Of a stretch of DNA of 34,129 nucleotides, positions 860-31,402 are shown one piece after another (the stretch's first letter is position 1; each line of letters begins with the position of its first letter). Source of the stretch: Kiritimatiellia bacterium (GTDB lineage: Bacteria > Verrucomicrobiota > Kiritimatiellia > RFP12 > JAAYLN01); NCBI GenBank assembly GCA_017509565.1, contig JAFWPM010000134.1, positions 1 to 34,129 of the forward strand. Direction: 5' to 3'. The notes under the pieces are model-generated. The model worked only from the letters and a program-made list of their open reading frames with translations. It was not told where the DNA came from and did no database searches. The position numbers and the translations under genes were made by a program.

Positions 860-3800
860 TCAGCGGAATACCAAGACCGTTGCCTGCTGCCCGCCGACGA
901 CGAGACTGCCAGTGCCGGGCGTGGCGACGGCCGTGCCATCCTCGTTCAGCGTCGCGGAGGAATCCTCGAACCACGTCCAGCCGCGCGCAAGCGCGTCGGC
1001 GAGAGTGTAGGTGCCGCTCTCGGCGACAATGGTGCTGCCATGCGAATCGACGACCGAATCGACTGTGAGCTTGCAGCCGGCCAAATCGACGTGGGCGAGC
1101 GAGTCTGTCTCTGTGCGGACTTCAAGGGTGGCGAAGCGCAGGGATGAGAGCAGGCGTATGCGGGCGTTGCTCGCGGCGTAGAGCGTGGCGTCCTTGAAGG
1201 CGGCTTTGGTCGCGGCCGCGTCGTCGCCGGGAATCGGCGTGTAGGCGCGGACGTATGGTCCGAGGTCGTAGTAGGTGCCTTTGGACCAGCTGTCCACGGC
1301 GTTGCGGACGAGGAGCGTCTTGTCGGTGCCGGACTGCAGCCAGACCGTGCCGGCGGCGCCTTCCCAGTAGGGCTGGTTCTCGCGCTTCCAGTAGTCGGGG
1401 GCGCGGGAGCCGTTCGCGGAGGCCGTCGTCGCCAAGGCGGCGTTCGCCCCGATCGCGACGAGCGCCACGCGCCCGCCGGAGGCGGCGGCCTGCTGCTCAG
1501 ACCCTGACGGGGCCGAGGCGTTGGCCGTGAACTGGCCGTCGCCGATGATCTCCGCCGCGCGGACATAGATGGAGCCGCCAGCGCCGCCGGCGACCTGCGA
1601 CCCCGACTGGCCATTGGCAATCACGCGACCTGCGTTGGTGAAGGTTCCACCAACAACGATGTGGAGTGCGCCGCCGCCGTGTCCTTCCGAGACGTCCACG
1701 TCCGTCCCGTTGTTTCCGCGGGCCGAGCCCTTTCCGGTCGTGACGGGTTCGAGGATCGACCCGAAGGGCACGAGCAGCGGATCGGATACGGCGTCGTGCA
1801 TCTGGTTCGTGGCCGTGATAACATAGCCGGCGTGGATGCCGCGCGCGTGGAAGCCGCCGCCCGTCCAGAAGCCGCGGCCGCGGCCCTGAGCGGAGATGTT
1901 GACGCCGGAGCCAACGGTGAAGTCGCCGCCTACCGCGACGTTGAGCCAGTAGCGCTCGACTGGCGCGGCCGCCCCGGCGGTCTTGACGGAGTCGCCCTGC
2001 ACGGGGTGGACCCACGCGCCGCCGAGGACCGAAACGTCGCCGGAGACGGTGAAGAGGTTGAAGCCCGCGTCGACGTCGGCGCCTTCGTAGGTGATCGGGA
2101 ATGTGACGAGACCGTTGTAGTCGGCTGTCTGCGTCCAGGAGGCGACTTCGTGCGTCGCGGCGGCGTCCCAGGTGAGGTTGCGGCTGCTCCACGCGCCGAG
2201 GAGGATGTTGTCGGTCGCGACGGGGGCGCGGCCGAGGCTCCAGTTGGCGTCGGACGAGGCGTTGCCGTCGTAGGTCGCGACCCAGACATTGTAGTCCGAG
2301 GGAATCGCGTAGTCGAGGAGCGTGAGGGCGGCCGTGTTGCCGACGCCGCCGTAGAGGCCGGAGCCGGCGAGGACGGAGAGCGTCAGGGTCGCGTCGGCCT
2401 TGAGCGCCGCGTCGTTGAGGGGCGTGATTGGCACCGACACCGTCGATTCGCCGGCGGCGAAGGTCGCCGTTCCGGATGGCGCCTGGTAGGAGACGCCCGC
2501 CGTGGCGGTGGCGGACGAGACGTCGTAGGCGACGGTGAGCGGGAGCGTGGCGTCGCCGGGACGGGAGAGGACAAACGAGCCGGCGACGAGGCCTTCCTCG
2601 TTCGCGTCGGCGCCCTTGGCGGCGGCAATGTCACCCACGAGGAAGATTTCGTCCGACGTGCGGCGCGCGGAGGCGCCGGACGGGGCCGTCGCCACGACGG
2701 ACGCGGCGTAGGTGCCGGCGGCTTCCGTGCCGGCGCTCGTCCACGACAGGGCGTAGGTGTCGGCGCCGGCGGTGGCGGTCCACGTCGTGGACCAGAGCGT
2801 CGTGTTGCCGAACACGACGGCGAGGCCGTAGGCGTTTCCGGCGACGCCGCCGATGGTGGCCGTCACCGTGTAGGTGCCGTCCTGGTTGCGGACGACGGCG
2901 GGGCCGGCGGAGATGTCCGGGGTGTCCTGGGCGGCGTTCTGCACGGCGCCGTAGGAGACGTAGCCGGAAGTCACGACCTGCTCGTATTCGGCCTGGAGGT
3001 AGTCGGCCGCCGGGACGCCGTTGTAGATGCGTATTTCGTCCGCGTAGCCGGTGAGCGGACTGTATTTGTTGTTGTCCGCCGCATAGCCGCCGAAGGCCAC
3101 GCCCTGGGCGCCCGCCGTGCCGGGCGTGGCGACGGAGCCGGACACGGACTGGTCGTTGATGATCATCCGGCCGGCCGTGCCGTCGATCGTCGCGGCGACG
3201 AAGTTCCACGACTGGTTTTTGAGAATCTGGTAGAGCACGGTGTTCGCGCCGACCTGCGTCGAAGAGCCGTTTCCGCGAAGGATCACGCCCGTGCCGGAAA
3301 TGCCCATGTATTCGAAGCCGTCGTCGCCGTAGGCGACCTTGTTCGAGAAGAAACGGACCGACGGCGTGGCCGACGTGGACCGGACCCACGCCGACACGGC
3401 GAAGCGCGACACGGACGAGAGCGCCGCGAGCGGGTTCTTGTCGCGGGTGCCAAGCTTGAAGCGGGTCCCCTGCTCCGTGTTCGCGTTGTAGAAGGCGCTG
3501 CCGAGGTGGTCGGCCCAGTCGGCGGAGAGCGTGTAGCCGCCCGTCGCGGGCAGGGGCGAGACCGGATAGTCGCCGCCGGTGGCGCTCGTCCAGCCGTTGC
3601 CGTGGTAGACGGCGACGTAGTTCGCCCAGACGGCGGTGGGGTCGTTGGCGTCGGGGGCGTCGCTGCCGTAGCGCATCGTGAGGACGTCGCCTTTGGCGAG
3701 CGACGGCACCTTGACCCAGACGAGCGACTCGCCGGTTTCGTTCCATGTGTCCACTTCATAGGCGAGACCCGTGCCGTCGGCCGTCTCGAAGCGGAGGTCC

Positions 3801-4015
3801 GAACCGTTGGAGCCCTGGAAGTCCTCGTAGGAGAAGCCGGTGATGGTGGATTCCGAGAGGCGCACGAGCAGCGGGAAGTCCACGAGCGTGACGCCTTCGG
3901 GGACGCCGCCGACGGTGATTTCAAGCGTCTTGTCGTAGGTCGCGCCGAACGCGGTCGCGGCGAGGAGCGCCAGGCCGGTCATGGCGGCGCGGAGTATGCG
4001 TAGTGTTGTTTTCAT
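860..4015 (-). CDS. Large secreted DUF2341/LamG/Calx-beta protein
   Basis: This encodes 1051 residues with a signal peptide (about 1-24, ending TAFGA). Residues ~47-118 match DUF2341 (SDLRFETADG, then WVKVPSLAKGD). Residues ~165-345 form a concanavalin/LamG fold (FAVSAWVRS, then DEIRIYNGVP). Residues ~460-560 resemble a Calx-beta repeat (GVSYQAPSGTATFAAGESTVSVPI). The C-terminal half is Gly/Ala-rich and beta-helix-like, ending VLVFR. Such modules bind glycans or surfaces, so it is probably an exported or surface polysaccharide-binding protein with no enzymatic role visible. AAAGGA lies eight bases before ATG 4015, inside a repeated sequence. It follows the GH5 gene by 37 bases and ends in a terminator, so the two form one unit. 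Confidence 0.85.
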   Translation of the reverse strand: MKTTLRILRAAMTGLALLAATAFGATYDKTLEITVGGVPEGVTLVDFPLLVRLSESTITGFSYEDFQGSNGSDLRFETADGTGLAYEVDTWNETGESLVWVKVPSLAKGDVLTMRYGSDAPDANDPTAVWANYVAVYHGNGWTSATGGDYPVSPLPATGGYTLSADWADHLGSAFYNANTEQGTRFKLGTRDKNPLAALSSVSRFAVSAWVRSTSATPSVRFFSNKVAYGDDGFEYMGISGTGVILRGNGSSTQVGANTVLYQILKNQSWNFVAATIDGTAGRMIINDQSVSGSVATPGTAGAQGVAFGGYAADNNKYSPLTGYADEIRIYNGVPAADYLQAEYEQVVTSGYVSYGAVQNAAQDTPDISAGPAVVRNQDGTYTVTATIGGVAGNAYGLAVVFGNTTLWSTTWTATAGADTYALSWTSAGTEAAGTYAASVVATAPSGASARRTSDEIFLVGDIAAAKGADANEEGLVAGSFVLSRPGDATLPLTVAYDVSSATATAGVSYQAPSGTATFAAGESTVSVPITPLNDAALKADATLTLSVLAGSGLYGGVGNTAALTLLDYAIPSDYNVWVATYDGNASSDANWSLGRAPVATDNILLGAWSSRNLTWDAAATHEVASWTQTADYNGLVTFPITYEGADVDAGFNLFTVSGDVSVLGGAWVHPVQGDSVKTAGAAAPVERYWLNVAVGGDFTVGSGVNISAQGRGRGFWTGGGFHARGIHAGYVITATNQMHDAVSDPLLVPFGSILEPVTTGKGSARGNNGTDVDVSEGHGGGALHIVVGGTFTNAGRVIANGQSGSQVAGGAGGSIYVRAAEIIGDGQFTANASAPSGSEQQAAASGGRVALVAIGANAALATTASANGSRAPDYWKRENQPYWEGAAGTVWLQSGTDKTLLVRNAVDSWSKGTYYDLGPYVRAYTPIPGDDAAATKAAFKDATLYAASNARIRLLSSLRFATLEVRTETDSLAHVDLAGCKLTVDSVVDSHGSTIVAESGTYTLADALARGWTWFEDSSATLNEDGTAVATPGTGSLVVGGQQATVLVFR

Positions 4016-4052: not shown

Positions 4053-5834
4053 TCAGCGTATCTCCACGGCACTCAAGTCGGCGTCGATTGGCAGGTTGCG
4101 GCCCCAGTGGCCGGGAATGAACTGCAATTCTGCGCCGATGCCCTTGCCGTCGAGGTTGATTTCGCCATCGGGGAGCGGTATGTCGACTTCCACGACTGGG
4201 CGCTCCGGCGTCGCAAGGAAGCACCCGGGCTGGTTGTTGTCGGCCCCGAACTTGACGTCGCCAAGGCCGGGGACGCGGAAATAGCCCTTGACAAGAACGG
4301 AGGTGCCGTTTTTTGCCGTGAGCGAGAAGTGCAGCGAGCGGCCCTTGGCTGAAGTCTTCGGGTTGCCGGACTTCCAGGCGGCCCACGAGCGGCGCGCCTC
4401 AAGGCCGCGGTCGGCCCAAAACTGCTGATGAATCATGTTGCCGCCGGCGCCATGAGTGTCGATGTGCAGCGAGCCATCGGGCGCGCAGGTGAAGAACTTC
4501 AGCGCGGCCCCGTTGCCGTTGACGTTGCCGTAGCCCATCGTCTGGCCCCAGACGCCGGAGTAGTTGTCCGGGCCGCCGACGGCCCAGCGCAGCACGACGT
4601 CGCCCGCCGCGCCCGGCTTGGGCGGCTGGTTCCGCTCCTCGACGGCGGCGAGCCACTTGCCGAAAGTCGCGTCGTCGAGCCTGCCGTGCCACGCGGCGAG
4701 GAAGGTGTCGGCCAGCTCTGGCTTGGTCCACTCGGCGGTCCTGCGGTCGATGAGGCCCATGTCCCAGTCGCCGCCGTTTTCCCAGACGATGATCGGGAAG
4801 CCGTGGCGCCTGGCCGTTTCGGCGTAATGGCGCGCCCACTTCATGCGTTCGGCATCGTTAGGGACATAGTGCAGCGCGTCCATCCAGCGGCGCTGGGCGT
4901 TGACTTCGCCGAGGACGAGCGGGACGCCCTTGTCGGTGAAGTACTTGTCGAAAAGCGGGAAGAAGAGCGCGAAGCGCTGCTGCGCGTGGGCGGGGTCGTG
5001 CTTCTTGCGGTCGCCCCAGATGCAGAAGTCGCCCGGTTCGTAGCAGTGGATGTCGGCGATGACGCGGCCGGAACCCGGTTCCGGGTCGCGCCATCCGGCG
5101 CATGTCGCCTCCTGGAAGCCGGCGGCGTAGGTCGGGACCATGAGGTAGCGCTTAACATTGTTGCCACCAGTGGAGCGCACGGCCTGGACGAAGATTTCCG
5201 CCCAGCGGTTCACCGTGTCGAAATACTCCCTGCGGCCGGTCCAGTCGTCCTTGCCCTTCTGGCTGCCGTCCGGCCCGGCCCACTTGCGGACCTTGCGCGG
5301 CTCGTTGAACGCCTCGAAAATGAGTTTTTCGCCGGCGCCGCCGAGGGCGGTCGCGATCTGCGTCCAGAGGTCGCGCAGCATTTCACCGGCCTCCCCCTCG
5401 TGTTCCCCGTCGATTGCCAGCCAGCCGAAGGGGGGTCCGTCGCCGCCGCTTTCGTGGTGGGTGTTCACGATCGTGACAAGCCCTTCGGCGAGGCACCATC
5501 CGACCACCTCCTTCACGCGGGCAAGGAAGGCGGGCTCGATCGGGTGGCCGGGGGCGTCGTGGTCGAAGCGCCGCGACCAGGTGACGGGGACGCGCACCGT
5601 GTCGAAGCCCCTGGCCCTGTAGGCGCGGATGAGGTCGCGCGTGATCTTCGGGTTGCCCCATTCGGTCTCGTTGCCGCTCGGGACGTCGAGCGTGTTGCCG
5701 ATGTTGATGCCGACGTGGATTTCGTCGCGCACGAACTCGGCCGCGCTGCGCGAAAAAGGCTCCGGCGCGGAAAGGCCAACGGCGGTGGCAAAAGCCGCCG
5801 CCAGGCAAACCAATTTTCCATCCAACTTTACCAT
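4053..5834 (-). CDS. Secreted GH5 endoglucanase-like glycoside hydrolase
   Basis: 593 residues. Signal peptide ~1-22 (KLVCLAAAFATAVGLSA). A GH5 TIM barrel spans ~30-385: GINIGNTLD at 42-50, RVPVTW at 81-86, NTHHE at 124-128, AFNEP with the acid/base Glu178, LVLGE with the nucleophile Glu310, and VWENG near 350. The GINIGNTLD opening is typical of GH5 endo-glucanases acting on beta-glucan, xyloglucan or mannan; the substrate is not fixed by the sequence. Residues ~405-593 form a beta-rich C-terminal domain, perhaps carbohydrate-binding. I chose ATG 5834 because it starts the signal peptide and lies 28 bases after a consensus -10 box; frames further up would include the promoter. It heads the unit that includes the LamG gene. 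Confidence 0.9.
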   Translation of the reverse strand: MVKLDGKLVCLAAAFATAVGLSAPEPFSRSAAEFVRDEIHVGINIGNTLDVPSGNETEWGNPKITRDLIRAYRARGFDTVRVPVTWSRRFDHDAPGHPIEPAFLARVKEVVGWCLAEGLVTIVNTHHESGGDGPPFGWLAIDGEHEGEAGEMLRDLWTQIATALGGAGEKLIFEAFNEPRKVRKWAGPDGSQKGKDDWTGRREYFDTVNRWAEIFVQAVRSTGGNNVKRYLMVPTYAAGFQEATCAGWRDPEPGSGRVIADIHCYEPGDFCIWGDRKKHDPAHAQQRFALFFPLFDKYFTDKGVPLVLGEVNAQRRWMDALHYVPNDAERMKWARHYAETARRHGFPIIVWENGGDWDMGLIDRRTAEWTKPELADTFLAAWHGRLDDATFGKWLAAVEERNQPPKPGAAGDVVLRWAVGGPDNYSGVWGQTMGYGNVNGNGAALKFFTCAPDGSLHIDTHGAGGNMIHQQFWADRGLEARRSWAAWKSGNPKTSAKGRSLHFSLTAKNGTSVLVKGYFRVPGLGDVKFGADNNQPGCFLATPERPVVEVDIPLPDGEINLDGKGIGAELQFIPGHWGRNLPIDADLSAVEIR

Positions 5835-5862
5835 AATATCCCCGTAATACAAATTCACAACA

Positions 5863-5891
5863 ATATTATCTGTTTTACAGCGACTTGTCAA
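5863..5891 (-). promoter_or_regulatory. Sigma70-type promoter of GH5 gene
   Basis: The minus strand reads TTGACA (5891-5886), a 17-base spacer, then TAATAT (5868-5863). This is near consensus. Transcription should start near 5856, giving a leader of about 20 bases before ATG 5834. Confidence 0.85.
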
Positions 5892-9030: not shown

Positions 9031-12000
9031 TTAGGGGGCTATGGCTATTTCGTAGAAGAGGGTCGCGGCGGCGGGGTCGTAGTCGGTGCGGGCGGTGAAG
9101 CGCAGGGTCATGTGCGCGGCGTCACACCGCGCACCGCCGCTGGCGGGCTCAACCGAAAATGGCACTTCGGCGATGCGGTGGCCGGTTGAGGAAAGGCGGT
9201 AGACCCGCAAGTTGGGCGGCTGCGCCGCTTCCTCTTGCGGCTGCGCCGCCAGCCGCAGCGCCACTTCGGCCGTGCCGCGGCGCATCAGGGCAGGGGTTTT
9301 GCCGAAGTCAAGCCAGACGAGACAGGAGGCATCGTCAAAGAGCGCATCGGTGTTGCGGCTGTCGGTGACATGCGAGACGAGGATGCGCGAAGAGGTGGCG
9401 ATGGGCCTGCCGTCGATGGACGACGCCCAAACCGCGGCGGGGGCGTCGGCGACGGCGACAGACAGGGGCCCCGCCTCGATGGCGCCATCCAGCGCGAAGC
9501 CGCCGGCGGTGCATGGGGTGGCAACCGTAAATGCGCCACGCACCGGATCCGGCGCGGCAAAGTTGGCCGCGCCATCAGTAGGCGCGGGCTGTTGGGCGGT
9601 GGCGGTGGCGGCCGCGCCCAGCCTAAACCCAATGCGCCTCTCCCAGCCCGAGGCGGCGTTGCCCGGTGCGGAAAGGCGCTTAGCGGCGTCATGTCCGGCA
9701 CATAGCGCGGCCTCGTCGATTTCAATGGCGCCGTCGGCTTCCGCCGGCAGCGATGGCAGGTCCCCGCGCAGGAAGAGGCAGAGCATGGCCCGCTCGCTGG
9801 CGCACTGCGTGGGGTCGGCCGCAAGGTCGAAATAGCGCATCCTTACGCTTCCGGGATTTTCGGCGTTGGGCCTGTCATGGCTCCATGCAAAGCGCCACAT
9901 CCCGCTCCAGCCCTGGCGGGCGGCGAGCGCTCCCATCACAAGGCCCGACGCCTGCCGGAACTTCCCTGGCGCGGCCCAGTTCCACTCAGTCACGCAGAAC
10001 GGCTTGCCGAAAAGCCGGCGCCACGCAAAGCCGGGAACCGCATTGCCGTCCTGCAGCGGGTTGGCGCCGGGATGCGACGCAGGCAGCGACCACTGCTTGC
10101 CCAAGAAGAACGGGTGATCCACGTAGCCATGGTCATCGACATAGTCGAAGTCTTTGCGCGCAAGGCCATACGACATGGGGAAATACCACGACGAGAGGTT
10201 GGAAAGCGGGGCGCGGCAGCCCAGCTCCTCTCGCACAAAGGTGCCCAACCTGTGGTAGAAGGCCAATTCCATGTCGGCGAGAAAGAGCGCAAAGGCGTTG
10301 GAGAGCGACTTTTCATCCCCCTTGGAATCATAGAGGTCGGCCGGCAGCGCGGAGAGGTCGCATGGCTCCCTGCCATGCTCCAGGCACCACTTTTCCCAGG
10401 CCTCCCGGACGCCCGGGATGGAGAGCAGGGCGTCGCGCCCATAGTTCCCAAGGTTGCCTTCGTTGATAAGGGCAAGCGTCGCGAGCGCCGGCTCCTCGGC
10501 AAGGCTGCGGCCGGTGTAGGGGTTCACATGGAGCATGAACTGCCGCGACCAGGCCACGAGGTTGGAGTATGCGCCTTCGTGGAATATCGCCGCCGTCTTG
10601 AAGTCCTCCTTCGCCATGGTCCCGTCGCGGTCTATGCCGATGGAGCGCCACGATATCGGGGCGCGGGAGACATACAGGTCGGTGGTGATGTAGAGTCCAT
10701 GGCGAATGCATGCGGCCACCAGCGCGTCGAAACGGTCCTGCGCGCCGGGGTCGATGGCGAGCGCCGACGGGTCGCCCTTGGCGAGCAGCGGGCGCTCGTG
10801 GTGGTGGATTCGAACGGAGTTGAAGCCCATGCGGGCGAGGTTGGCCGCAAGGCGGTCCGAAGCTTCGACCGACGGCGTATTGGCACCATGGACGAAATTG
10901 ACGCCGCAAAAGCGGACTTCCTCGCCGGGGCGGCCTTCGAACTCGAAGTGGCCGCCGACGGCGACTACGCGACCGAACTTGCCGGCAGGTTCGTGGTGCG
11001 GGAGCGTGGACGAGAGGTCTAGCGCAGAGCCAGGCTCGATCCAGTCCTCCCCCGGCTCGGCCGGCACGTATGGTATCCAGTCCGGGCCGGCCTTGGCAAT
11101 CACCTGTTCGCCTTCGTCAAGGACCAGCCTCGATCCCGGCAGGCGGAAAATTGCATTGAGCGCGTATGTCCTGCCGGCCTCCACTTTGCCCTGGACCAAG
11201 AAGAGCCGGAGCGTTGCCACGGCGCTGCCCCAGCTGCGGTTGTCCTGCACGAGGATATTGGCGGAATCCGGGAGCTCGATCGCAAGCCACGCCTTGCCAT
11301 CCGGGCCAATGGCCTCGACACGCGATGCCGGGCCGCGGTAGAGATGCGCCTTCTCCGGCATCGCATCGGGAATCGGTATCGCCCTGCCATCCACCAGGAA
11401 GCCGTTTTTCACGCGGCCAAGCGGGAAGCGCGCCTCCAGCATCACTTCGGACAGCTCCCCGTCGCGGTCGGGGACTATCGTCCAATTGGCGGCGACGCCG
11501 CCGTCGCCGGTGTCGGCGAACGAGGCGCGGCCATCGAAGCGAAGGGCCCCGGCGGCGACGTTGTCACTGGCATTGTTGGCCAAATCGATGGCAAACACGC
11601 GCTCGCCATCCACGCGCGCCCCGCCAAACGCCCCGCGGAACTTCCAGGCCGACGTGTAGGCGCCAAGCCGGAAAAAGAGATCCGCCGGCGCGGAGATTGA
11701 CATGGCCGCCCCCCAGACGGGCCTGGCGGAAGCGGCTGGCGCCACGGCGGGGGATGGCGCAGGCTCGGCCGGGGCCCTTTCGATTTCGTAGAGGAAAGTC
11801 GCGGCGGCGGGGTCGTAGTCGGTGCGCGCGGTGAAGCGCAGGGTTACACCTCCGCTGGCTGGCTCGACGGTGCATGGCACCTCGGCGATTCGGCGGCCGG
11901 AGGGTGAAAGGCGGTAGACCCGCAGGGGCGCGGCCGCGGCATTCCCGGCGGCCAGCGTAAGTGCCACCTCGGCGGCGCCGCAGCGCATCAGGTGCGGCAA

Positions 12001-14706
12001 CTTCCCCCAGTTGAGGAGGATCGTGAGATCGGAATCGGCATATTTGATGTCGCTGTTCTGCACGTCGGTGAGGTGAGTGATCAGGATGTGGCTGGATTCC
12101 GGAATTGACGCCCCGTCAAGCGAGGATGCCCATACCGTGGCGGGAACGGGTAAATTGCCGGATTGGGCCGGCGACACAGCGCTCTTGCCGGTGTTCTGCA
12201 CCGCTGGCGCCGTTCCGGCGCAGAGTTCCCAGTGCAGCGGGCCGGCGGTGTGGGCGCCGCTCTCGGCGAATCCGCCGGCCGTCCGCGGAGTGTTTATCAG
12301 GAAGGTGCCGGTGTCGGCGTCGATCGAGACAGCGCCGTCGCCCGGTTCCGTTGCGCCAAGCGCGGCCAGTTCGGCCCTGACGGTGGCCGAATCGCGGAAG
12401 AGCGGTTCGTAGGCGGTTCCCTCGGGGGAGGCCGCGCCATCCTTGTCGACGTTTATTGACAAGCGCGCGTTCCATGCGGCCCACAGCCAGCTGTCCGCCT
12501 GGCATTTCGGGGCGCCGTTCGCGGGGTTGCGCAGATCGCGCTCCGAAAAGGCAAGCGGGTATTCGGCCTTGAGGGGGGCGAGGTCGCCGCGCATGAAAAG
12601 GCAGAGCGCCGCGCGCTCGGCCGCGAGGCCGAGCGGGTCGCCGCTCATGTCGAAATATCCCATCGTCCTTGTCTCGGGCTTTTCGACGCCGGATTTGCCG
12701 TGGCTCCATGCGAAGCGCCACATGCCGCTCCAGTTCTGGAGCGCGCCGAGGACGCCAGTGGCGATTCCGCCTACGCCGCGGTAGCGGCCGGGCCCGGCGT
12801 AGTTCCACTCGGTGATTGTGAAGGGCTTGTCGGCAAGGCGGCGGAATACGACGGGCCGCGCCCCGGAGCGGCTCCCCTTGATCGGGTTGACATTCGGGCA
12901 CCGGGAAGGCAGCTGCCACGACTTGTCGAGAAAGGCCGGGTGGTCGACGTAGAAGTGGTCGTCAACATAGTCGAAGCCCGTGCGCGGCATCTGGTACTGC
13001 ACCGGATTGTACCAGCAGGAAAGCGAGGATACCGGCGCAAGGCAGTGGAGTTCGTCGCGCAGGAAGGCCGTCAGGCGCTCCGCAAGGCGCGCCTCGGCGT
13101 CGGCGAGAAAGATCGCGAAGGCCGCCGAATGGCGGTTTTCGGGCGTCGAGCCGTCGTCGGCGTACAAGTTGTCGGGAATCGTGCGCGGGATCGACGACCA
13201 GTCAAAGCCGTATTCGACTTCCTGCCGCTCGTCAAGCCACTTTTCCCAGGCCTCCTGGACTCCTGGGAGGCTGCGCAGCGGCGCGGCGCCCCAGTTCCCG
13301 AGGTTGCCCTCGTTCACAAGCGCGAGCGCGCAGAGCGCCGGCTCCTCGGCAAGGCTGCGGCCTGTGTATGGGTTGACATGTCCAAGGAAATTGCGCGACC
13401 ACTCGCAGAGGTTTGTGTAGGCCGGCTCCCAGAATGCGCAGAGCATTTTGAAGTTCTCCGTTCCGGGGAGGCAGCCGTCGCGGTCGATTCCAAGCGAACG
13501 CCAGGTCGTGAACCACGAGCGCGAGACGAAGAGGTCCGTGGTGATGTAAATGCCGTTTTTGACGCATGCGGCGACAAGGGAGTCGAAGCGGTCCATTGCC
13601 GCAGGATCTGGCACCGTATCGTCGAAGTCAGGCCCGGCGCCGTCGTTGGGGCCCTTTCCGCCGAGGATCGCCCTTTCGTGGTGGTGTATGCGCAGGGAGT
13701 TGTAGCCGATGCGGGCGAGGTTGGCGGCGAAGCGTTCGGCCGCCTCGGGCGTGGACGGCGTGTTGGCGTCTCCGCAGATGTTGACGCCGTAGAAGCGCTG
13801 GACTACGCCCGGGAGGCCTTCAAGCTCGAAGTGGTCGCCGACGGCGACGACGCGGCCGAACTTGCCGGCCGGGGCATGGTGCGGCAGGACCTTGGTGAAG
13901 TCGAGGGCGGAGCCTGGCTCGATTATCGGCTCGTTGGCGAGCGGAATCCAGTCAGGCCCGGCGGTGATTGTTACGGGTTTGCCGTCGTTCAAGGCGAGAA
14001 AACCGTCGGCAGGGGTTGAGAAGACCGCGCGCACCGCGTATTCCTTGCCGCCCTTGACGGGCCCCTCGGCGAAGAAGAGCCGGATGGTGAAGTTGTTTCC
14101 GCCCCATGCGCGGTTGTCCTGCAAAAGAATGCGCGTAGGGGCATCGAACACAATGCGGATGCGATCGGCGCCGGTGCGGTCGCGCAGAACGAGTTCGGAA
14201 ACCGCGCCGCGGAAGAAGTGCATACCCCTGCATTCGTCAGGAATGGCTATTTCGCGGCCATCGACAAGGGCCGTCGCCCCCGCGAAGACCGAAATGTCAA
14301 AGTTTCCGGCTACGCACAGCTCAAGCAGGGGGGCGTCGGCCTCCGGGACGACCAGCCACTCGCCGCGGACGCTGCCGTCGCCCGGCATTGAAAAGCGCAC
14401 GCGGCCGTTTATCCTCGGCAAGCCGGCGCGCTTGGAGGTCTGCATGGAGAACGTGCGCCAGCCGCCGGCATCCTGCTCCATGCCGCCGGACGAGCCGTGG
14501 CTGACCCACCCCTGCTCGAAAAGCATTGGGTAAAACGAGACTACGGGGAGCGCGATGCCGCCGCCGAAGACCACGGACGCCGGGACTGCCTTCACGGCCG
14601 TCCCGATTTCCGCCGCGGATACAATTGCCTTCGCCGGTTCGGCGACTGTGTTTGAAAGCGCGCCAAGAAGTGCCAGCGCGACGAATAGGTGTGCCGTTCT
14701 TTTCAT
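9031..14706 (-). CDS. Secreted tandem-duplicated glycosidase-like protein
   Basis: 1891 residues with a signal peptide (~1-22). It is two copies of the same ~940-residue unit. Each has an N-terminal beta-sandwich (QDNRAWG/QDNRSWG), a TIM-barrel-like core and a C-terminal beta domain ending RTDYDPAAAT. Copy 1 has FYGVNICGDANTP, LRIHHHE, LALVNEG (Glu466) and TEWNYAGPG (Glu633). Copy 2 has FCGVNFVHGANTP, VRIHHHE, LALINEG (Glu1416) and TEWNWAAPG (Glu1574). The two glutamates fit acid/base and nucleophile of a clan GH-A glycosidase, with NEG in place of the usual NEP. Both active sites look intact. Copies are joined by an Ala/Pro linker (~978-996). I cannot name the family or substrate. ATG 14706 has no clear ribosome-binding site; it was chosen for its signal peptide. 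Confidence 0.85.
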   Translation of the reverse strand: MKRTAHLFVALALLGALSNTVAEPAKAIVSAAEIGTAVKAVPASVVFGGGIALPVVSFYPMLFEQGWVSHGSSGGMEQDAGGWRTFSMQTSKRAGLPRINGRVRFSMPGDGSVRGEWLVVPEADAPLLELCVAGNFDISVFAGATALVDGREIAIPDECRGMHFFRGAVSELVLRDRTGADRIRIVFDAPTRILLQDNRAWGGNNFTIRLFFAEGPVKGGKEYAVRAVFSTPADGFLALNDGKPVTITAGPDWIPLANEPIIEPGSALDFTKVLPHHAPAGKFGRVVAVGDHFELEGLPGVVQRFYGVNICGDANTPSTPEAAERFAANLARIGYNSLRIHHHERAILGGKGPNDGAGPDFDDTVPDPAAMDRFDSLVAACVKNGIYITTDLFVSRSWFTTWRSLGIDRDGCLPGTENFKMLCAFWEPAYTNLCEWSRNFLGHVNPYTGRSLAEEPALCALALVNEGNLGNWGAAPLRSLPGVQEAWEKWLDERQEVEYGFDWSSIPRTIPDNLYADDGSTPENRHSAAFAIFLADAEARLAERLTAFLRDELHCLAPVSSLSCWYNPVQYQMPRTGFDYVDDHFYVDHPAFLDKSWQLPSRCPNVNPIKGSRSGARPVVFRRLADKPFTITEWNYAGPGRYRGVGGIATGVLGALQNWSGMWRFAWSHGKSGVEKPETRTMGYFDMSGDPLGLAAERAALCLFMRGDLAPLKAEYPLAFSERDLRNPANGAPKCQADSWLWAAWNARLSINVDKDGAASPEGTAYEPLFRDSATVRAELAALGATEPGDGAVSIDADTGTFLINTPRTAGGFAESGAHTAGPLHWELCAGTAPAVQNTGKSAVSPAQSGNLPVPATVWASSLDGASIPESSHILITHLTDVQNSDIKYADSDLTILLNWGKLPHLMRCGAAEVALTLAAGNAAAAPLRVYRLSPSGRRIAEVPCTVEPASGGVTLRFTARTDYDPAAATFLYEIERAPAEPAPSPAVAPAASARPVWGAAMSISAPADLFFRLGAYTSAWKFRGAFGGARVDGERVFAIDLANNASDNVAAGALRFDGRASFADTGDGGVAANWTIVPDRDGELSEVMLEARFPLGRVKNGFLVDGRAIPIPDAMPEKAHLYRGPASRVEAIGPDGKAWLAIELPDSANILVQDNRSWGSAVATLRLFLVQGKVEAGRTYALNAIFRLPGSRLVLDEGEQVIAKAGPDWIPYVPAEPGEDWIEPGSALDLSSTLPHHEPAGKFGRVVAVGGHFEFEGRPGEEVRFCGVNFVHGANTPSVEASDRLAANLARMGFNSVRIHHHERPLLAKGDPSALAIDPGAQDRFDALVAACIRHGLYITTDLYVSRAPISWRSIGIDRDGTMAKEDFKTAAIFHEGAYSNLVAWSRQFMLHVNPYTGRSLAEEPALATLALINEGNLGNYGRDALLSIPGVREAWEKWCLEHGREPCDLSALPADLYDSKGDEKSLSNAFALFLADMELAFYHRLGTFVREELGCRAPLSNLSSWYFPMSYGLARKDFDYVDDHGYVDHPFFLGKQWSLPASHPGANPLQDGNAVPGFAWRRLFGKPFCVTEWNWAAPGKFRQASGLVMGALAARQGWSGMWRFAWSHDRPNAENPGSVRMRYFDLAADPTQCASERAMLCLFLRGDLPSLPAEADGAIEIDEAALCAGHDAAKRLSAPGNAASGWERRIGFRLGAAATATAQQPAPTDGAANFAAPDPVRGAFTVATPCTAGGFALDGAIEAGPLSVAVADAPAAVWASSIDGRPIATSSRILVSHVTDSRNTDALFDDASCLVWLDFGKTPALMRRGTAEVALRLAAQPQEEAAQPPNLRVYRLSSTGHRIAEVPFSVEPASGGARCDAAHMTLRFTARTDYDPAAATLFYEIAIAP

Positions 14707-14772
14707 GTCAATGGGGTTTGGTTAAAAGCGCGTAAAAATGTGGCCGGCGGGCGTTCGTTCCCGCCGACCATC

Positions 14773-14803: not shown

Positions 14804-17800
14804 CTAGCGCACAACCAGCATGAACGGATGCGTCTTGCGGAATTCGATCCTCACCGTGGCGGGCGAGATTCCGGCCTCGTAGGTGTAGGTGGAAGACTCG
14901 ACTGGGGTGGCGTCGCCCCATGTGCCGTCCGCCTGGAGCGCCGCCACGCGCACGAAGTTGGCGCCGGCCGCGCCGGAGAAGACATGCGACCCGAAGACCT
15001 GATAGGCGGTGGCGGTGTCTTCGGCAAGTTCGCCGCTGAATTCGTTCGCGACGACAAGGACGTTCGTCGTCGCGAGCGCGCCGAAGTAGCGGGCGCTGTC
15101 AACATTGCGGTTCCACGCCAGTTCATCCTCGGAGAGCATGCGGTCGTAGAGGCGGACGGACTTGATAGTGCCATAGAGCGGATCTCCTCCGCCGCCGCCC
15201 GTTAACGCTCCGACGCCCCAGCGGGTGGCCGGCGCAGACGCGTCTTTCGATCCAACCGACCAGTCCATGCAAGCCTGGTGCGCCATGGTGTTTTCCGTCG
15301 TCGGATAGGCCGTTCCCTCGACGAGCGCCGCGCGGTTGCCGTTGCGGATGGCCGTGAGATAGGTAGGATGCCCGTCCAACCCGACGAAAACGGATCCGCG
15401 CAAATTCCATGCCGCTCCAGTCATATCTGAAGTGTGGTGCTGAACAGTGCCCATACCGTCGCCCTTGAGCCAGATGCTGCCATAGGAGATGTGGTCTATC
15501 GGCGAGACATAAGTTCCATTGTGGGAGCCGTCCTTGTTTACGGCGAAATCCACATCGCCAAGCGTCTGCATCGTGTAGGCGTGTCCTAGCGAGAACGTGG
15601 CTGCGGCCCCAGTCGCGAATACGGCGTTGCTCGCGAAGAAGTAGCCGTCATCCACCCAGTGGCTTTCGCCCGATGGATTGCCGGCGAGCGTCGCGTCGCG
15701 GCCATTGCCGGAGAGATCGCTCCAGACGGTGGCGGAGGAATCGTGGGCCGTGCCGGCGTTGAGCAGGCCGTCGAGATGCAGCTGCATGCCGCCCGCCGCG
15801 TAGTCGGCGAGCGCGTAGTCGGCGGCGGTGCGGATGCCGGCGACGGGCTTCCAGAGCCATGTCAGGCGCACGGACGGGAGGGCCGCGCTTGTCGCGGCCG
15901 CAGTGTGTTCGGCGACGTTCCCGTCGTCGCACATGACAGAAGACTGCGCGCCCCAGGCGGAGGAGGCGGCGTCCCAAGTCTGGAGCTGGTAGCCGGCGCA
16001 CTGCCACTCGATGCCGCGCGCGGTCTGCGTGCCGGCGCCGGCGGAGAAGGTCCAGCCGTCGGGGAAGTAGATGCCGGAGCTTTCGCGGCCCTCAAGGCCG
16101 TCGATCGCGCTCTGCACCACGACGCATCCGGTCTCGGGGATCTTGCCGAAGAAGCGCGCCTCGTCCACCGCGCGGTTGTGCGCGAGCTCCGCTTCCGTGA
16201 GAAGCCTGTTGTAGAGGCGTACGGACTTCACGGTCCCCTTCGTCGTGTTGGCGGGAGCCGTCGTCCTGCCGCCGACGAGCCATGTCGTCGGATCGGCGAC
16301 GAGGTTCTTGGATCCGACAAGCCAGGCGTTCGTGACATAGTTCTGGCTTGCGGCAATCCCACCATTGGCGACGTCGTATTCGGTTTCGGGATAGGTCGTT
16401 CCCGTGATGAGAGCCGTCTTGGCATTGTCGCGAAGGGCGGCAAGATAGGTGACCGTGGCCAACTGGTAGAACCCGGGCATGGCATTCCAGGGACTTCCGG
16501 TCGTGGCATCGCTGCGGTGGCAGAGGATCGCATTCGCCGCCTTGTAGTAGATTCCGCCTGCGCCGGTCGGGCCGGTGGACGGGACCAGGATGTCCTTTTC
16601 CGCGGTGTCGCCCCACCAATCGGAGCGCTTGCCGTCCATCAGAACTTCGAAGGTGTGCTGCGTCCCGAAGGCGAACTTTTCCGCAGTCGAAAACACGGCG
16701 TTGAAATTGAAGTAGAAGCCCTTGTCCGTCCAGTGGCTCGTTCCGTCGGCGTTGCCGGCGAGGAAGGCGTCGCGGCCGTTGCCGGAGAGGTCCTTCCAGA
16801 CGGCGGCGGAAGCGTCGTGGACGCCGACGCCGGCGTTGTCGATGCCGTCGAGCCGGAGCGCAAGGTCATCCGTCACGTATCCGGCGTCAAGCGAGCCGGT
16901 GGCCGCTTCCCACTGCCAGGTGATTTTCACCTTGTCGGAGGAAGAGACGGAGACGGCGAAGACGCCGTCGCGGATTTCCGCCGCGCCCCAGTCGCCGGTC
17001 GCGGAATTCCACTGCGCGACGGTGCAGCCTGTGCAGGCGTAGGTCACGCCATCAATGACGGCGGTCGGGCTGGCGCGGAAGGTATGGCCGTCCTCGTCCA
17101 CCGCGTAGGCGCCGGCGGTTTCGACGCCTTCGGCGCCGGAAACGGACGTGGCGACCACGGCGTTCGTCACCGGGATGCCCGTGAAGAAGCGGATTTCGTC
17201 GAGCGCGCGATTCTGCGCGAGTTCGTCGTTCGAGAGAACGCGGTCGTAGAGGCGAATTGCCTTGATTTCCCCCTTGATGTATCGGGCGTTGAAGCCATCA
17301 GTCCCGGCTGTGTTGCTTGCGGCGCTGCCAAGGTGGAACGTAATGTCCCCGATGTCGCCCTGCGAACCAGTCACGGTGGCAGACGCCGGACGCGAGACGG
17401 AGGAGAAAATGTATTTGTCGTTGCCGTTGCGGATGGCGTTGAGGTAGCGCTGGTCCCAGTTCGCCGCCGCGAAATTGGCGTTGCCGCCATCGACGTTCTT
17501 GAAAGTGAAATTGTTGGCGCTCTTGCTGAAATAGAGGTTGCAGGCGTCCTTCTTGGCGGAGGTCTCGCCGCCGATGAACATCGGCCACGAGACGGACGAG
17601 GCCGTGCCCTTCAGCGTATCGAGCGTCATGGCCGAAACGACCTGGATCGTCACCGTGTTGGTGAGCGAGACCGTTGTCGAGAGTGTTGCGTAGGAAGCGC
17701 CGCCGAAGGTGTAGCCGCTGACAGTCCACACGCTGCCGTCGGCCGTCGAGTTGAACGTGGCGACTCCGCCCGCCGAGCCGAGGTTGACCCATGTCCCCGC

Positions 17801-17977
17801 GCCGGGATTGTGCGCGACGTCCGCGCCGGCGTTGCGGATGCCGTCGAAGTTCAGGACGAGGCCGTCCTGGACGTAGTCCGACGGCTCCCACGAGCGCAGT
17901 CCGGCGGAGGCGGAGAGGGCCGCCGCAATGGCCGTTGCGGCCGTCAGCAGTCTTGTCATGGCATGGGTGCTATTCAT
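14804..17977 (-). CDS. Secreted triple LamG-like protein
   Basis: 1057 residues. A signal peptide (~1-26, MTRLLTAATAIAAALSASAG) is followed by three modules of ~330 residues. Each begins with a short Y-V-x-D/G-G/D-L-x-L-x-x-D-G motif (LVLNFDGIRNAG, LALRLDGIDNAG, LQLHLDG-like MQLHLDGLLNAG), continues with SGNGRDA (modules 2 and 3), and closes with IRLYDRVLSNDELAQNR or its relatives, then a small beta domain. These are concanavalin-like folds that bind sugars or surfaces. No catalytic residues recognised. AAGGAG lies eight bases before ATG 17977, which fixes the start. It ends FMLVVR, resembling the VLVFR end of the other LamG protein. A weak TAGAAT box lies at 18013-18018. Confidence 0.85.
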   Translation of the reverse strand: MNSTHAMTRLLTAATAIAAALSASAGLRSWEPSDYVQDGLVLNFDGIRNAGADVAHNPGAGTWVNLGSAGGVATFNSTADGSVWTVSGYTFGGASYATLSTTVSLTNTVTIQVVSAMTLDTLKGTASSVSWPMFIGGETSAKKDACNLYFSKSANNFTFKNVDGGNANFAAANWDQRYLNAIRNGNDKYIFSSVSRPASATVTGSQGDIGDITFHLGSAASNTAGTDGFNARYIKGEIKAIRLYDRVLSNDELAQNRALDEIRFFTGIPVTNAVVATSVSGAEGVETAGAYAVDEDGHTFRASPTAVIDGVTYACTGCTVAQWNSATGDWGAAEIRDGVFAVSVSSSDKVKITWQWEAATGSLDAGYVTDDLALRLDGIDNAGVGVHDASAAVWKDLSGNGRDAFLAGNADGTSHWTDKGFYFNFNAVFSTAEKFAFGTQHTFEVLMDGKRSDWWGDTAEKDILVPSTGPTGAGGIYYKAANAILCHRSDATTGSPWNAMPGFYQLATVTYLAALRDNAKTALITGTTYPETEYDVANGGIAASQNYVTNAWLVGSKNLVADPTTWLVGGRTTAPANTTKGTVKSVRLYNRLLTEAELAHNRAVDEARFFGKIPETGCVVVQSAIDGLEGRESSGIYFPDGWTFSAGAGTQTARGIEWQCAGYQLQTWDAASSAWGAQSSVMCDDGNVAEHTAAATSAALPSVRLTWLWKPVAGIRTAADYALADYAAGGMQLHLDGLLNAGTAHDSSATVWSDLSGNGRDATLAGNPSGESHWVDDGYFFASNAVFATGAAATFSLGHAYTMQTLGDVDFAVNKDGSHNGTYVSPIDHISYGSIWLKGDGMGTVQHHTSDMTGAAWNLRGSVFVGLDGHPTYLTAIRNGNRAALVEGTAYPTTENTMAHQACMDWSVGSKDASAPATRWGVGALTGGGGGDPLYGTIKSVRLYDRMLSEDELAWNRNVDSARYFGALATTNVLVVANEFSGELAEDTATAYQVFGSHVFSGAAGANFVRVAALQADGTWGDATPVESSTYTYEAGISPATVRIEFRKTHPFMLVVR

Positions 17978-18119
17978 TGGAAAAATCTCCTTGTTGCGAT
18001 TTGACTGCAACAATTCTACCTTATCGGACCTTCGCAGTTTTAGCGTTTTCAATGAGAATTTGTTTGCATTTTCGATAATAATGTGGTAGATTTCTGTGGA
18101 GGTTTGGAGGTTTTCCTTT

Positions 18120-18176
18120 GGCAGGATTAACAAGATTACCACCCTTAAAAAAACTGTTCATCATGTCAATCCTGTC
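18120..18176. repeat. 9-mer hairpin element, copy C (degenerate)
   Basis: Left arm GGCAGGATTAACAAGATTACC (18120-18140) and right arm ending GTCAATCCTGTC (to 18176) surround a 15-base A-rich centre. The downstream flank TTGCGTTAAAAATCCCG (18196-18212) recurs beside copy D. It lies between the start of the triple LamG gene and the XylR-like gene. Confidence 0.75.
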
Positions 18177-18258: not shown

Positions 18259-19446
18259 ATGAAGGAGGAAGTCGGCAATCAGGCTGCGCCGAGGCGCGTC
18301 CTCGTCTCGATATTCATCGGCATCGCGGCCGCCCGCGAAGTGTTCACGGGCGTCGTCTCGCGAATAAACGAGAACCACCCGTGGATTATCGACTACGAAT
18401 TCGACAGCGCCAAGGCATTCGCCAGAATCAAGGCCGAGCCAGGCCATTTCGGCGGGATGATCGCCGAGGCGCCCGGAAGCGCGGAGGAGTTCGCGGAACT
18501 CGCGGCGCTGGACATCCCCATAGTCTTCACGAAGAACGTGGTGGATGGCAAGGCATCGGCGAGGCGCATATCCTACGTCCGCCCGGATGACGAGAAGCTT
18601 GGCCGCGCCGGCTTCCAGCATCTGGCGCGGCTTGGGACCTTCGGGACATGGGTGTTCGTTCCGGACAGCCATAACAGGCGGTTTTCACGCATGCGCGGGA
18701 AAGGCTTCGCGGAAGCCGTCGCAAGGCGGTTCCAGGGGACATCAGCCGTCACGCTCCCGCTTGAGGAGGCGAAAGCGGTCGGAAGACTGGCGCGGCTTCC
18801 AAAGCCGCTGGCGATATTCGCAGTCAACGACAACGCCGCCCTGAACGTTCTGGGCGTATGCCGCCTTGCCGGAATAGACGTCCCGGGCCAGGCGATGGTC
18901 CTTGGCGTGGACAACGACACGATGGTATGCCTGAACTCAAAGCCCACGCTATCGAGCCTCCAGCCCGACCACGTGGCGCTCGGGGCGCGCGCGGTGGACG
19001 AACTCGCGAGGCTGATGAAAGGCGGAACCGGGCGCACAATGACCGTGAGAATACCCGTCACGAAGGCCGTTGTCAGGGAATCGACGCGCTACCTGCCGCC
19101 AGCCGAACATCTGGTTGCCCAGGCGCTGAAGTTCATATCGGAACAGGCCGAGGCCGCGCCGACGGTCGGCGAAGTGGCGGCCCACCTGCGCATATCCAGG
19201 CCGCTGCTCGACCTGCGCTTCAGGCAGATACGCGGCGAAAGCGTGGGCCGCGCGATTGCTGCGGCGCGCATCGCGGAGGTCAAGCGCCGGCTGCAAAGCA
19301 CCAGGGACACGGCGACCCAGATCGCCGAGGACTGCGGCTTCGGCTCCGTGGCGGTCCTTTCGCGGTTCTTCAGGCGCGAGACCGGCGAAACGCTTTCGGC
19401 CTGGCGCAGGAACGCGCGCCGCAGCCACCCCTGGCGTGCGCACTAG
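18259..19446 (+). CDS. XylR-like regulator (LacI sensor + AraC HTH)
   Basis: 395 residues. Residues ~13-270 are a periplasmic-binding-protein-like sugar sensor (MIAEAPGS, then AIFAVNDNAALNVLG, then VLGVDND). Residues ~285-385 are an AraC-type double HTH (TVGEVAAHLRISRPLLDLRF, then ATQIAEDCGFGSVAVLSRFF). This sensor-first, AraC-last order is that of XylR-type activators of sugar genes, common in Lentisphaerae and Verrucomicrobia. GGAGG lies nine bases before ATG 18259. It sits inside the glycosidase region and diverges from the triple LamG gene, so it is a good candidate to control that region. Its stop codon overlaps that of the convergent SDR gene in one CTAG (19443-19446). Confidence 0.92.
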   Translation: MKEEVGNQAAPRRVLVSIFIGIAAAREVFTGVVSRINENHPWIIDYEFDSAKAFARIKAEPGHFGGMIAEAPGSAEEFAELAALDIPIVFTKNVVDGKASARRISYVRPDDEKLGRAGFQHLARLGTFGTWVFVPDSHNRRFSRMRGKGFAEAVARRFQGTSAVTLPLEEAKAVGRLARLPKPLAIFAVNDNAALNVLGVCRLAGIDVPGQAMVLGVDNDTMVCLNSKPTLSSLQPDHVALGARAVDELARLMKGGTGRTMTVRIPVTKAVVRESTRYLPPAEHLVAQALKFISEQAEAAPTVGEVAAHLRISRPLLDLRFRQIRGESVGRAIAAARIAEVKRRLQSTRDTATQIAEDCGFGSVAVLSRFFRRETGETLSAWRRNARRSHPWRAH

Positions 19447-20228
19447 CAGTCGCAATCGACGGGCATGTGCTGGCACGAACACCCGGCGTCGACGGTGATG
19501 ATTTCGCCGGTCATGTTCGCGGAGTCGTCTGAGGCGAGGAATGCGACGACGCCGGCTATGTCGGCGCCCTTCGCCTCCCTGCCAAGCGGGCAGTTCCTGC
19601 GGCGCCGCGCCGCAAGGGCCGGGTCGAGGGTGTTCCATCGCTCGGTGTTGATGTAGCCGGGGGCGCAGCAGTTGACCCGTATCCCAAGCGGCCCAAGGTC
19701 GAGGCCGAGCGAGCGGACGAGCGAGTTGATGGCGCCCTTCGAGGAGCAGTATGCGGTGCGGTTGCGGATTGCGCGGCGGGCAGTGTTCGAAGATAGGAAA
19801 ACCACGACGCCGCGCGTGTCCTGCTTCATGAAAAATCGGTTGCACGCCATCTGCGTCACCTGGAACCCGCCGATTACATTGACGGCAAGGACGCTGCGGA
19901 AGTTGTCCGGCGTCATTTCAAGAGGCCCGCCGTGGCCGATCCCCTGGTTGGCGGCGTTGTTCACAAGAATGTCCAGCCGCCCGGCCTCGCGCCCTATCGC
20001 GTCGAACATCGCCGACACCTGCGCAATGTCGGAGATGTTGCACGGAACATAGGTGACGCCATCGACGCCACGGGCCTTCATCGCGGCCGCGCCACGCGAC
20101 GTGGAATCCTCATCGGACCCGCATGAGAACACGCGGGCGCCCTCCCGGGCGAACCGCTCCACGATGTCAAGCCCCGTGTTCCTGCTGCCGCCGGTGACCA
20201 GAACGACTTTGCCTTCAAATCTTTTCAT
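19443..20228 (-). CDS. Short-chain dehydrogenase/reductase, Cys-rich tail
   Basis: 261 residues of the classical SDR family: nucleotide site TGGSRNTG (12-19), NNAA at 90-93, SS at 147-148, and YCSSK with Tyr160 and Lys164; APGYINTERW follows. It is an NAD(P)-dependent oxidoreductase; beside a sugar-acid dehydratase it may oxidise a sugar or sugar acid, but that is inference. The last 15 residues, DAGCSCQHMPVDCDC, hold four cysteines and a histidine where SDRs usually end soon after DGG. ATG 20228 begins right before the Rossmann strand, and TATAAT lies six bases upstream, so the mRNA probably has no leader. Longer frames upstream would cross the divergent gene. Confidence 0.9.
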   Translation of the reverse strand: MKRFEGKVVLVTGGSRNTGLDIVERFAREGARVFSCGSDEDSTSRGAAAMKARGVDGVTYVPCNISDIAQVSAMFDAIGREAGRLDILVNNAANQGIGHGGPLEMTPDNFRSVLAVNVIGGFQVTQMACNRFFMKQDTRGVVVFLSSNTARRAIRNRTAYCSSKGAINSLVRSLGLDLGPLGIRVNCCAPGYINTERWNTLDPALAARRRRNCPLGREAKGADIAGVVAFLASDDSANMTGEIITVDAGCSCQHMPVDCDC

Positions 20229-20234
20229 AAAATG

Positions 20235-20257
20235 ATTATAGCAAAAAGTGCTAAAAT
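20235..20257. promoter_or_regulatory. Back-to-back extended -10 promoters, leaderless both ways
   Basis: The minus strand has TGCTATAAT (-10 at 20240-20235), six bases before the SDR ATG. The plus strand has TGCTAAAAT (-10 at 20252-20257), seven bases before the enolase-family ATG at 20265. The two boxes are mirror images round AAAAG. The whole intergenic spacer is 36 bases. Confidence 0.7.
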
Positions 20258-20264
20258 TATTCCC

Positions 20265-21431
20265 ATGAAAATCACGGGCATAAGGACATTTGCAATCGAC
20301 TGCTTCCGCACCAACTGGGTGTTCGTCAAGGTGGCGACCGACGAGGGCGTCACCGGAATCGGCGAGGGGACCCTTGAATACAAGGAGAACGCGCTGGCCG
20401 GCGCAATTGCCGACCTTGAGCACGCCATCGTCGGCAAGGATCCCTTCGACAACGAATGGATTTTCCACGAAAACTACCGTGACGCCTACTGGCGCGGCGG
20501 GCCGGTCCTGATGAGCGCGCTCTCCGCGGTTGACATGGCGCTCTGGGACATCAAGGGCAAGGCCCTGGGCATGCCGGTTTGGAAACTGGCCGGCGGAAAG
20601 TGCCGCGACGGGGTGCCATGCTACGCCAACTGCTGGTTCTCGGGCGCAAAGGAGCCGGAGGAGTTCGCGGACAAGGCGACGGCCGCCGTGGAAAAGGGCT
20701 TCAAGGGACTGAAATGGGACCCGTTCGGGAAAAACTACCGCCAGCTTCCGCCGGAGGACTTCAGGAAGGCGATGCGGTGCGTCGCTGCCGTCAAGGCGGC
20801 GACCGAGGGCAGGGCCGAAATACTGATCGAGTGCCATGGGCGGTTCGACGTCCCGACGGCCCTGCGAATTTGCAACGCGCTTGAGGAGTTCTCGCCATAC
20901 TGGGTCGAGGAGCCGGTCATTCCGGACACCATGCGGGCGCTGGCCGACCTAAGGTCGCGCGTCCGCGTCCCAATAGCATGCGGCGAACGCCTCTTCACGA
21001 CGCAGCAGATAATGGACGCAGTGGAACTCCGCGCAATGGACTACCTCCAGCCGGACTCCTCCCACGCCGGCGGAATCACCGGCATGAAGCAGATTGCGGC
21101 AATATGCGACACCCACCACATCCCATTCTGCGCGCACAACCCAAGCGGGCCGGTCGCCAACGCAGTCACGCTCGCGCTTGGCGTTTCAACACCGGGGTAC
21201 TGCATCCACGAGACGCTCTTCGACGACGTTCCGTGGCGCGGCGACGTGGTTGACGAGGATGTGCGGTTCTCAAACGGCCTGATGTATCCGTCCGACAGGC
21301 CAGGGCTTGGCATCGAACTCAACGAGGAGGCGGCCGCGGCACATCCAAAGGCCGACCACTGGCTCAGGCACTACGTGGGGACGCTGACAAACATCCGCCC
21401 GCCCGACAGCGTAAGCTACTGGCACGGCTGA
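20265..21431 (+). CDS. Galactonate-dehydratase-type enolase superfamily enzyme
   Basis: 388 residues of the mandelate racemase/muconate lactonising group. Metal ligands: Glu189 (LIECHGRF), Glu215 (WVEEPV) and Glu241 (CGERLF). Catalytic histidines: His191 (ECHGR) and His291 (CAHNPSGP). All five stand exactly six residues after their counterparts in E. coli D-galactonate dehydratase as I recall them (183, 209, 235, 185, 285), except that the first ligand is Glu, not Asp. It should remove water from an aldonic acid to give a 2-keto-3-deoxy acid; the sugar acid is not certain. I chose ATG 20265 (MKITGIRTF), the usual family start; it lies seven bases after TAAAAT. A possible ATG at 20232 would include the promoter. 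Confidence 0.9.
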   Translation: MKITGIRTFAIDCFRTNWVFVKVATDEGVTGIGEGTLEYKENALAGAIADLEHAIVGKDPFDNEWIFHENYRDAYWRGGPVLMSALSAVDMALWDIKGKALGMPVWKLAGGKCRDGVPCYANCWFSGAKEPEEFADKATAAVEKGFKGLKWDPFGKNYRQLPPEDFRKAMRCVAAVKAATEGRAEILIECHGRFDVPTALRICNALEEFSPYWVEEPVIPDTMRALADLRSRVRVPIACGERLFTTQQIMDAVELRAMDYLQPDSSHAGGITGMKQIAAICDTHHIPFCAHNPSGPVANAVTLALGVSTPGYCIHETLFDDVPWRGDVVDEDVRFSNGLMYPSDRPGLGIELNEEAAAAHPKADHWLRHYVGTLTNIRPPDSVSYWHG

Positions 21432-28827: not shown

Positions 28828-28856
28828 TTGACCATATTCGGAAAATCATATAGAAT
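28828..28856 (+). promoter_or_regulatory. parB promoter, leaderless spacing
   Basis: TTGACC (28828-28833), 17-base spacer, TAGAAT (28851-28856), then exactly seven bases to ATG 28864. A strong sigma70 pattern that places the first transcribed base at or next to the start codon. Confidence 0.8.
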
Positions 28857-28863
28857 ACAGGAC

Positions 28864-30060: not shown

Positions 30061-30085
30061 GCCAGTCGCGCCGGCTGGATTTGAT

Positions 30086-31352: not shown

Positions 31353-31378
31353 CAGCGTCCTGTCATTAAACACAAAAT

Positions 31379-31402
31379 GCCGTCGGTTTTCCAACCAACG
31401 GC
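31379..31402 (-). terminator. Terminator of tRNA-Leu/rpsT unit
   Basis: Stem of ten positions with one mismatch (GCCGTTGGTT/AACCGACGGC on the minus strand), four-base loop, then ATTTTG. It begins 26 bases after the rpsT stop. On the plus strand the stem is followed by TTTTT, so it could act in both directions. Confidence 0.75.

Follow-up and report, generated by a model that had tools for sequence, protein, structure and literature searches.

The window analysed here comprises 34,129 nt of contig JAFWPM010000134.1 from a Kiritimatiellia bacterium of the gut, a relative of rumen Kiritimatiellae. It harbours one uninterrupted open reading frame of 1891 aa on the minus strand (9031..14706) that holds two glycosidase-like copies. 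This raises the question how both copies came to lie in a single chain and what such a protein might do. We consider it rather likely that its product is a bicatalytic glycoside hydrolase destined for secretion, which arose by fusion of adjacent paralogues from two GH5-related subfamilies and whose halves are probably complementary.

Domain architecture and genomic context of the fused gene

A Sec signal peptide is predicted for residues ~1-23 (MKRTAHLFVALALLGALSNTVAE; 14638..14706, minus strand as for all parts of the gene given below). It was read by eye and shows a basic start, a hydrophobic core and an A-x-A-like end, in line with the secreted protein proposed in a previous sequence-only reading of this locus. 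Copy 1 spans residues 26-975 and copy 2 residues 976-1891; both share 51% amino acid and 59% nucleotide identity over 884 aligned positions. Domain HMMs built here match the N-terminal domain, the barrel and the C-terminal domain twice each and in order, which corroborates the two three-domain copies noticed in that reading.

Copy 1 starts with a predicted beta supersandwich domain (13987..14583; domain HMM, model and Foldseek), followed by the GH5-like catalytic domain (12571..13974; domain HMM and profile match to GH5 mannanases) and the C-terminal beta domain (11785..12339; domain HMM). At the fusion junction a Pro/Ala/Ser-rich linker is located (aa 976-995, 11722..11781), which resembles the N-terminal end of the mature proteins from free copy 2 genes, e.g. 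L130 and gene 2 of L022. Copy 2 again consists of an N-terminal domain (11116..11721; domain HMM and pLDDT), a GH5-like catalytic domain (9748..11103) and a C-terminal beta domain (9049..9567), the latter two identified by domain HMM.

AlphaFold2 models of each copy, built on a 14-row alignment that left out the loci from the genome search, have a mean pLDDT of 61.2 and 57.0. The N-terminal domain of copy 1 is modelled at a pLDDT of mostly 82-96 (residues ~101-240), that of copy 2 at about 87-94 over much of copy 2 residues 81-220. In both copies the first half of the barrel matches GH5 folds and the second half is modelled at a pLDDT of <50; a full (beta/alpha)8 barrel, with both glutamates facing a common pocket, is presumed for each. 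Foldseek matches comprise GH5 mannanases and mannosidases, supersandwich proteins and GH31-type enzymes, with galactose mutarotase and the YidC periplasmic domain among those of the copy 1 N-terminal domain. Long alignments of copy 1 were also obtained with a GH164 beta-mannosidase (6t7g) and an alpha-agarase (9m0b), at TM-scores of 0.21-0.30 on a low-confidence model; this weak similarity is possibly restricted to the fold level.

Directly upstream of the fused gene lies a minus-strand gene (14804-18142) whose 1112-aa product matches Laminin_G_3 (concanavalin A-like) and contains, as judged by eye, three LamG-type repeats. Between both genes a terminator-like hairpin was found by consensus match (14741..14770, minus strand; 11-pair stem with 9 GC pairs, then a T-rich tail). 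The fused gene may hence have its own transcript. A clear GH5 gene (4053-5891, minus strand; PF00150, E 2e-43) is located ~3 kb from the fused gene and is not close to it in sequence. Positions 860-4015 (minus strand) encode a secreted protein of 1051 aa with a DUF2341 and a sub-threshold Calx-beta match. The region 18259-21431 holds a LacI/AraC-type regulator, a short-chain dehydrogenase and a sugar-acid dehydratase-like gene of the enolase family, a possible sugar-acid catabolism unit. ParB-like and DnaA-like genes were recognised by eye in 28828-33935, where GC drops from about 0.65 to 0.48-0.51; this part is possibly near the replication origin.

Relation of the catalytic domain to GH5

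The motif HHHE is found at positions 341 and 1301, NEG at 465 and 1415 and TEWN at 632 and 1573. Both copies thus retain the NEG and TEWN glutamates, as the sequence-only reading had stated. In copy 1 the predicted acid/base is E466 (13309..13311), invariant in 58 homologues and aligned with the GH5 NE, and the predicted nucleophile is E633 (12808..12810), likewise invariant and matched to the GH5 glutamate when the two profiles were aligned globally. The counterparts in copy 2 are E1416 (10459..10461) and E1574 (9985..9987), predicted from motif and conservation in the same 58 homologues.

The usual acid/base motif of GH5 is NEP. Instead, NEG is present in 52 of the 58 homologues and in both copies. 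Invariant throughout the homologues are R339, H342, D391, N465, E466, H584, Y586 and E633, i.e. the R, NE, HxY and E are kept without exception. N465, E466 and E633 correspond to the catalytic glutamate pair of GH5 (NE after strand 4, E on strand 7). Further active-site residues of GH5 are an R on strand 2, H-x-Y on strand 6 and a W near strand 8; these are represented by R339, H584 and Y586 and by W663 (56/58), whose placement on the strands is putative. GH5 also possesses a His on strand 3. The closest conserved motif to it, again by putative strand assignment, is TTDL with the invariant D391 and no His.

The whole protein scores 25.5 bits against PF00150 (cut-off 23.5), whereby no single stretch passes alone; the copy 1 barrel by itself reaches 12.5 bits and stays below the cut-off. 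PF00150 matches 37 of the 58 homologues at E<=1, the best at 7e-7. No match was found in a PDB search with the single protein sequence, and an NCBIfam search of the fused protein assigned no family. A PDB search with a profile of the 58 barrels, however, gave matches to GH5 mannanases that span the first barrel half and include the NE (best E 1.1e-6). Using hhalign against a GH5 set of 30 sequences drawn from genomes of the phylum, a probability of 96.8% was obtained with both glutamates aligned, the second within a region of low identity. The same profile against the single GH5 sequence of the window gave an uninformative 4.6%.

The nearest characterised relatives are GH5 endo-beta-mannanases and an exo-mannosidase (3pz9/6tn6 of Thermotoga petrophila, 8gf3 BlMan5_7, 1uuq Cellvibrio mixtus Man5A). 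They match the profile up to the NE acid/base at E 1.1e-6 to 9e-5 and are among the best Foldseek matches of both copy models. In contrast, identity is about 10-16%, the PDB profile match stops before the second glutamate, they carry NEP where NEG is found here, and the fused protein has an additional N-terminal supersandwich and C-terminal beta domain. Since weak Pfam, profile, hhalign and model evidence combine, we regard the catalytic domain, judged from its sequence, as a distant relative of GH5 mannanases that is clan GH-A-like, but not as a proven GH5 member. The suggestion of a GH-A-type branch with NEG for NEP is supported in the sense that the branch is related to GH5.

Origin of the fusion and exchange between the copies

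Patchy DNA identity between the copies, as described before, is real: the longer direct-repeat blocks lie ~2.7-2.9 kb apart and are about 71% to 88% identical, far above chance. Together with the shared architecture of both halves this would suit the history that the sequence-only reading implied, in which one gene was recently duplicated internally and the copies then diverged in patches amid widespread gene conversion. The barrel tree argues otherwise. One group unites copy 1 with L021 copy 1, L022 gene 1, L023 and L045 (100/99), the other copy 2 with L021 copy 2, L022 gene 2, L053, L055 and L056 (100/99). The two resulting subfamilies, A (copy 1) and B (copy 2), span several genera and differ by 31 fixed barrel residues, including F585 -> G1527 between an invariant H and Y. 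Moreover, the halves share 73-76% and 64-67% identity with their respective orthologues, far more than the 44-51% with each other, and conversion is confined to one tract of ~70 codons as detailed below. A recent internal duplication is thus very improbable; the copies rather represent two older subfamilies that were joined by fusion.

Free, adjacent and fused arrangements of these genes were all observed. Both subfamilies include free genes elsewhere that possess a signal peptide of their own; for copy 2 these are L053, L055, L056 and L130. In L022 both genes are adjacent and unfused, with the stop at 3879-3881, a gap of 14 nt and the ATG at 3896 in a different frame. In L023, as judged by eye, no forward frame of the 210 bases that follow copy 1 encodes the beginning of copy 2. 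The fused frame was detected in the window genome (G000) and in G417 only, among 162 genomes of the order; the G417 contig has the same length as that of L021. L061 (1886 aa) turned out to be one unit with an alpha-amylase-like domain and L130 to be a free copy 2, neither being a double enzyme. Another long frame of 1946 aa appeared in the genome search (G339:C6).

The draft assembly, split into 314 contigs and rich in paralogues, could in principle have joined two genes artificially. Yet L021, from another species and an independent assembly, displays the same fused frame (1935 aa) with the same fusion point and a different linker, which renders an assembly artefact a negligible prospect. The simplest account of the origin is a fusion of neighbouring paralogues. 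Two neighbouring genes, one each from subfamilies A and B, would have fused end to end, whereby the stop of copy 1 and the signal peptide of copy 2 would have been removed and a short Pro/Ala-rich linker left. As the copy 2 barrels of the window and L021 are sisters (97/98), a single fusion before their split is likely.

Regarding the repeats, a nearly identical block had been reported for 9048-9108 and 11788-11848. The block exists (57/61 nt identical), but its partner is 11784-11844; the reported partner is 4 nt off and matches at only 17/61 nt. Gene conversion or selection had been put forward as causes. Along the greater part of the gene, each copy resembles its orthologue more than the other copy, while in the last ~70 codons the window copies are closer to each other. 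The respective tracts make up the terminal part of copy 1 (aa ~906-975, 11782..11991) and of copy 2 (9049..9267, upstream limit approximate). In permutation tests the copy 1 tract resembles copy 2 more than it does the orthologues of copy 1 (p<0.0002, 4/4 tests). For the copy 2 tract p<0.004 was obtained in 4/5 orthologue tests, the fifth sequence (L022 gene 2) ending before the tract. The best-scoring segment begins at copy 1 residue 906 in 4/4 copy 1 and 4/5 copy 2 tests. This test treats codons as exchangeable, hence conserved stretches could inflate its significance.

Between the copies dS is 0.50 in the last ~70 codons versus 1.13-1.42 elsewhere, and dN is 0.17 versus 0.37-0.73. The copies of L021 show little or no conversion signal, mostly none with one comparison at p 0.03. 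Reduced dS and the absent signal in L021 argue against constraint alone as the cause of the tract. Gene conversion between the copies is thus supported for the last ~70 codons only and in the window genome only. Most other near-identical blocks look like what is expected from constraint on catalytic motifs, since there the orthologue is nearer to each copy than the other copy is. Of the two causes put forward, conversion is supported for the terminal tract, and the other blocks fit ordinary constraint. Conversion across the whole gene was considered as well and rejected, only one tract being significant.

Putative function and the surrounding enzyme family

The protein combines two catalytic modules, as recognised by sequence, in one chain with a predicted signal for secretion. 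From the invariant residues two retaining beta-glycosidase sites are predicted. Most likely each half acts on a beta-linked plant cell-wall polysaccharide, which it would hydrolyse by a retaining two-glutamate mechanism (E466/E633 and E1416/E1574). The substrate may be a plant wall polysaccharide that is perhaps pectin-associated, because the hosts of the relatives are ruminants and a sister subclade is fused to GH28, a family of pectin enzymes. The named relatives are all Kiritimatiellae or Verrucomicrobia MAGs, and all named hosts are ruminants. The GH28 hint concerns the sister subclade of copy 2 and not copy 2 itself: L059 (and by eye the similar L058), from genomes G022 and G033, respectively, carries the N-terminal GH28 domain, and L004 of the window genome belongs to the same subclade and is devoid of it.

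Some difference in subsite specificity between the halves is probable, as suggested by the fixed differences between the subfamilies, above all F585 -> G1527 beside H584/Y586. One export event would then deliver two complementary activities to the same substrate. Every catalytic residue is retained in both halves and the barrels are 57% identical, which would also agree with one common specificity, the fusion acting by avidity or gene dosage rather than by division of labour. With the subfamilies kept apart across genera and 31 fixed barrel differences, one of them right beside the invariant H584/Y586, we deem this unlikely. Non-catalytic modules are known in glycosidases generally, and this general precedent is what would speak for one half being catalytically weak and mainly a binding or structural module. 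Each half keeps every invariant residue, however, and barrel dN/dS against L021 is about 0.14 for copy 1 and 0.17 for copy 2, well below 1 and indicative of purifying selection on both; a weak half is accordingly quite improbable.

Comparable arrangements are known. Cel5A of Saccharophagus degradans unites two GH5 modules and three CBM6 (PMC3124978, Table 4). It shares with the fused protein two related catalytic modules, here predicted, in one secreted chain, but is a true GH5 cellulase with CBMs, whereas the modules described here are distantly GH5-like and bring their own accessory domains. The chitinase Chi18B of the same species contains two catalytic domains, one endo and one exo (PMC3124978). 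Despite belonging to an unrelated family it resembles the functional model proposed here, i.e. one chain with two catalytic domains and divided tasks. Multicatalytic enzymes are also described from Teredinibacter, where it is unknown, according to the authors, what advantage co-localisation brings (PMC2699552).

The barrel profile matched 102 of 289 sampled genomes of the phylum. In the window genome (3.2 Mb, 314 contigs) the profile search yielded 24 matches, and a search with the fused protein 29 matches on 13 contigs, several of which are pieces of one gene; close relatives reach 26-30 profile matches per genome, the family being expanded in several relatives. The three-domain unit is the usual plan of the family, the N-terminal domain being absent from some members. 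Besides the fusions mentioned above, a BNR-repeat domain was found in L011. One paralogue of 296 aa in the window genome (L020:1513-2400, minus strand, G000:C119) has kept signal peptide and C-terminal domain and lost the barrel by an apparent internal deletion. Family pairs within about 3-4 kb occur in G277:C538, G041:C11, G104:C8 and G174:C116; tandem copies may be common though fusion is rare. Literature searches revealed no new or expanded GH family in the phylum (CAZy was outside their scope) and no assayed enzyme of the GH5-like barrel family.

A further reading, which we hold only tentatively and as somewhat doubtful, would make the catalytic domain the founder of a clan GH-A family that is undescribed and separate from GH5, with the fused A-B protein as a bicatalytic member of two specificities. 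If true, the new family would have expanded in some rumen Kiritimatiellae relatives, to about 20-30 matches in each genome, and the fused enzyme would direct two different specificities at one plant polysaccharide.

Taken together, the gene represents a fusion caught in the act inside a large and little-studied GH5-like family and not a new kind of system. It points to a large enzyme family in the phylum whose activity we found nowhere described in the literature. The locus offers a rare series of free, adjacent and fused states for a predicted bicatalytic glycosidase, plus local conversion between the fused copies, and the benefit of fusing sister enzymes becomes testable by comparing fused and split natural versions.
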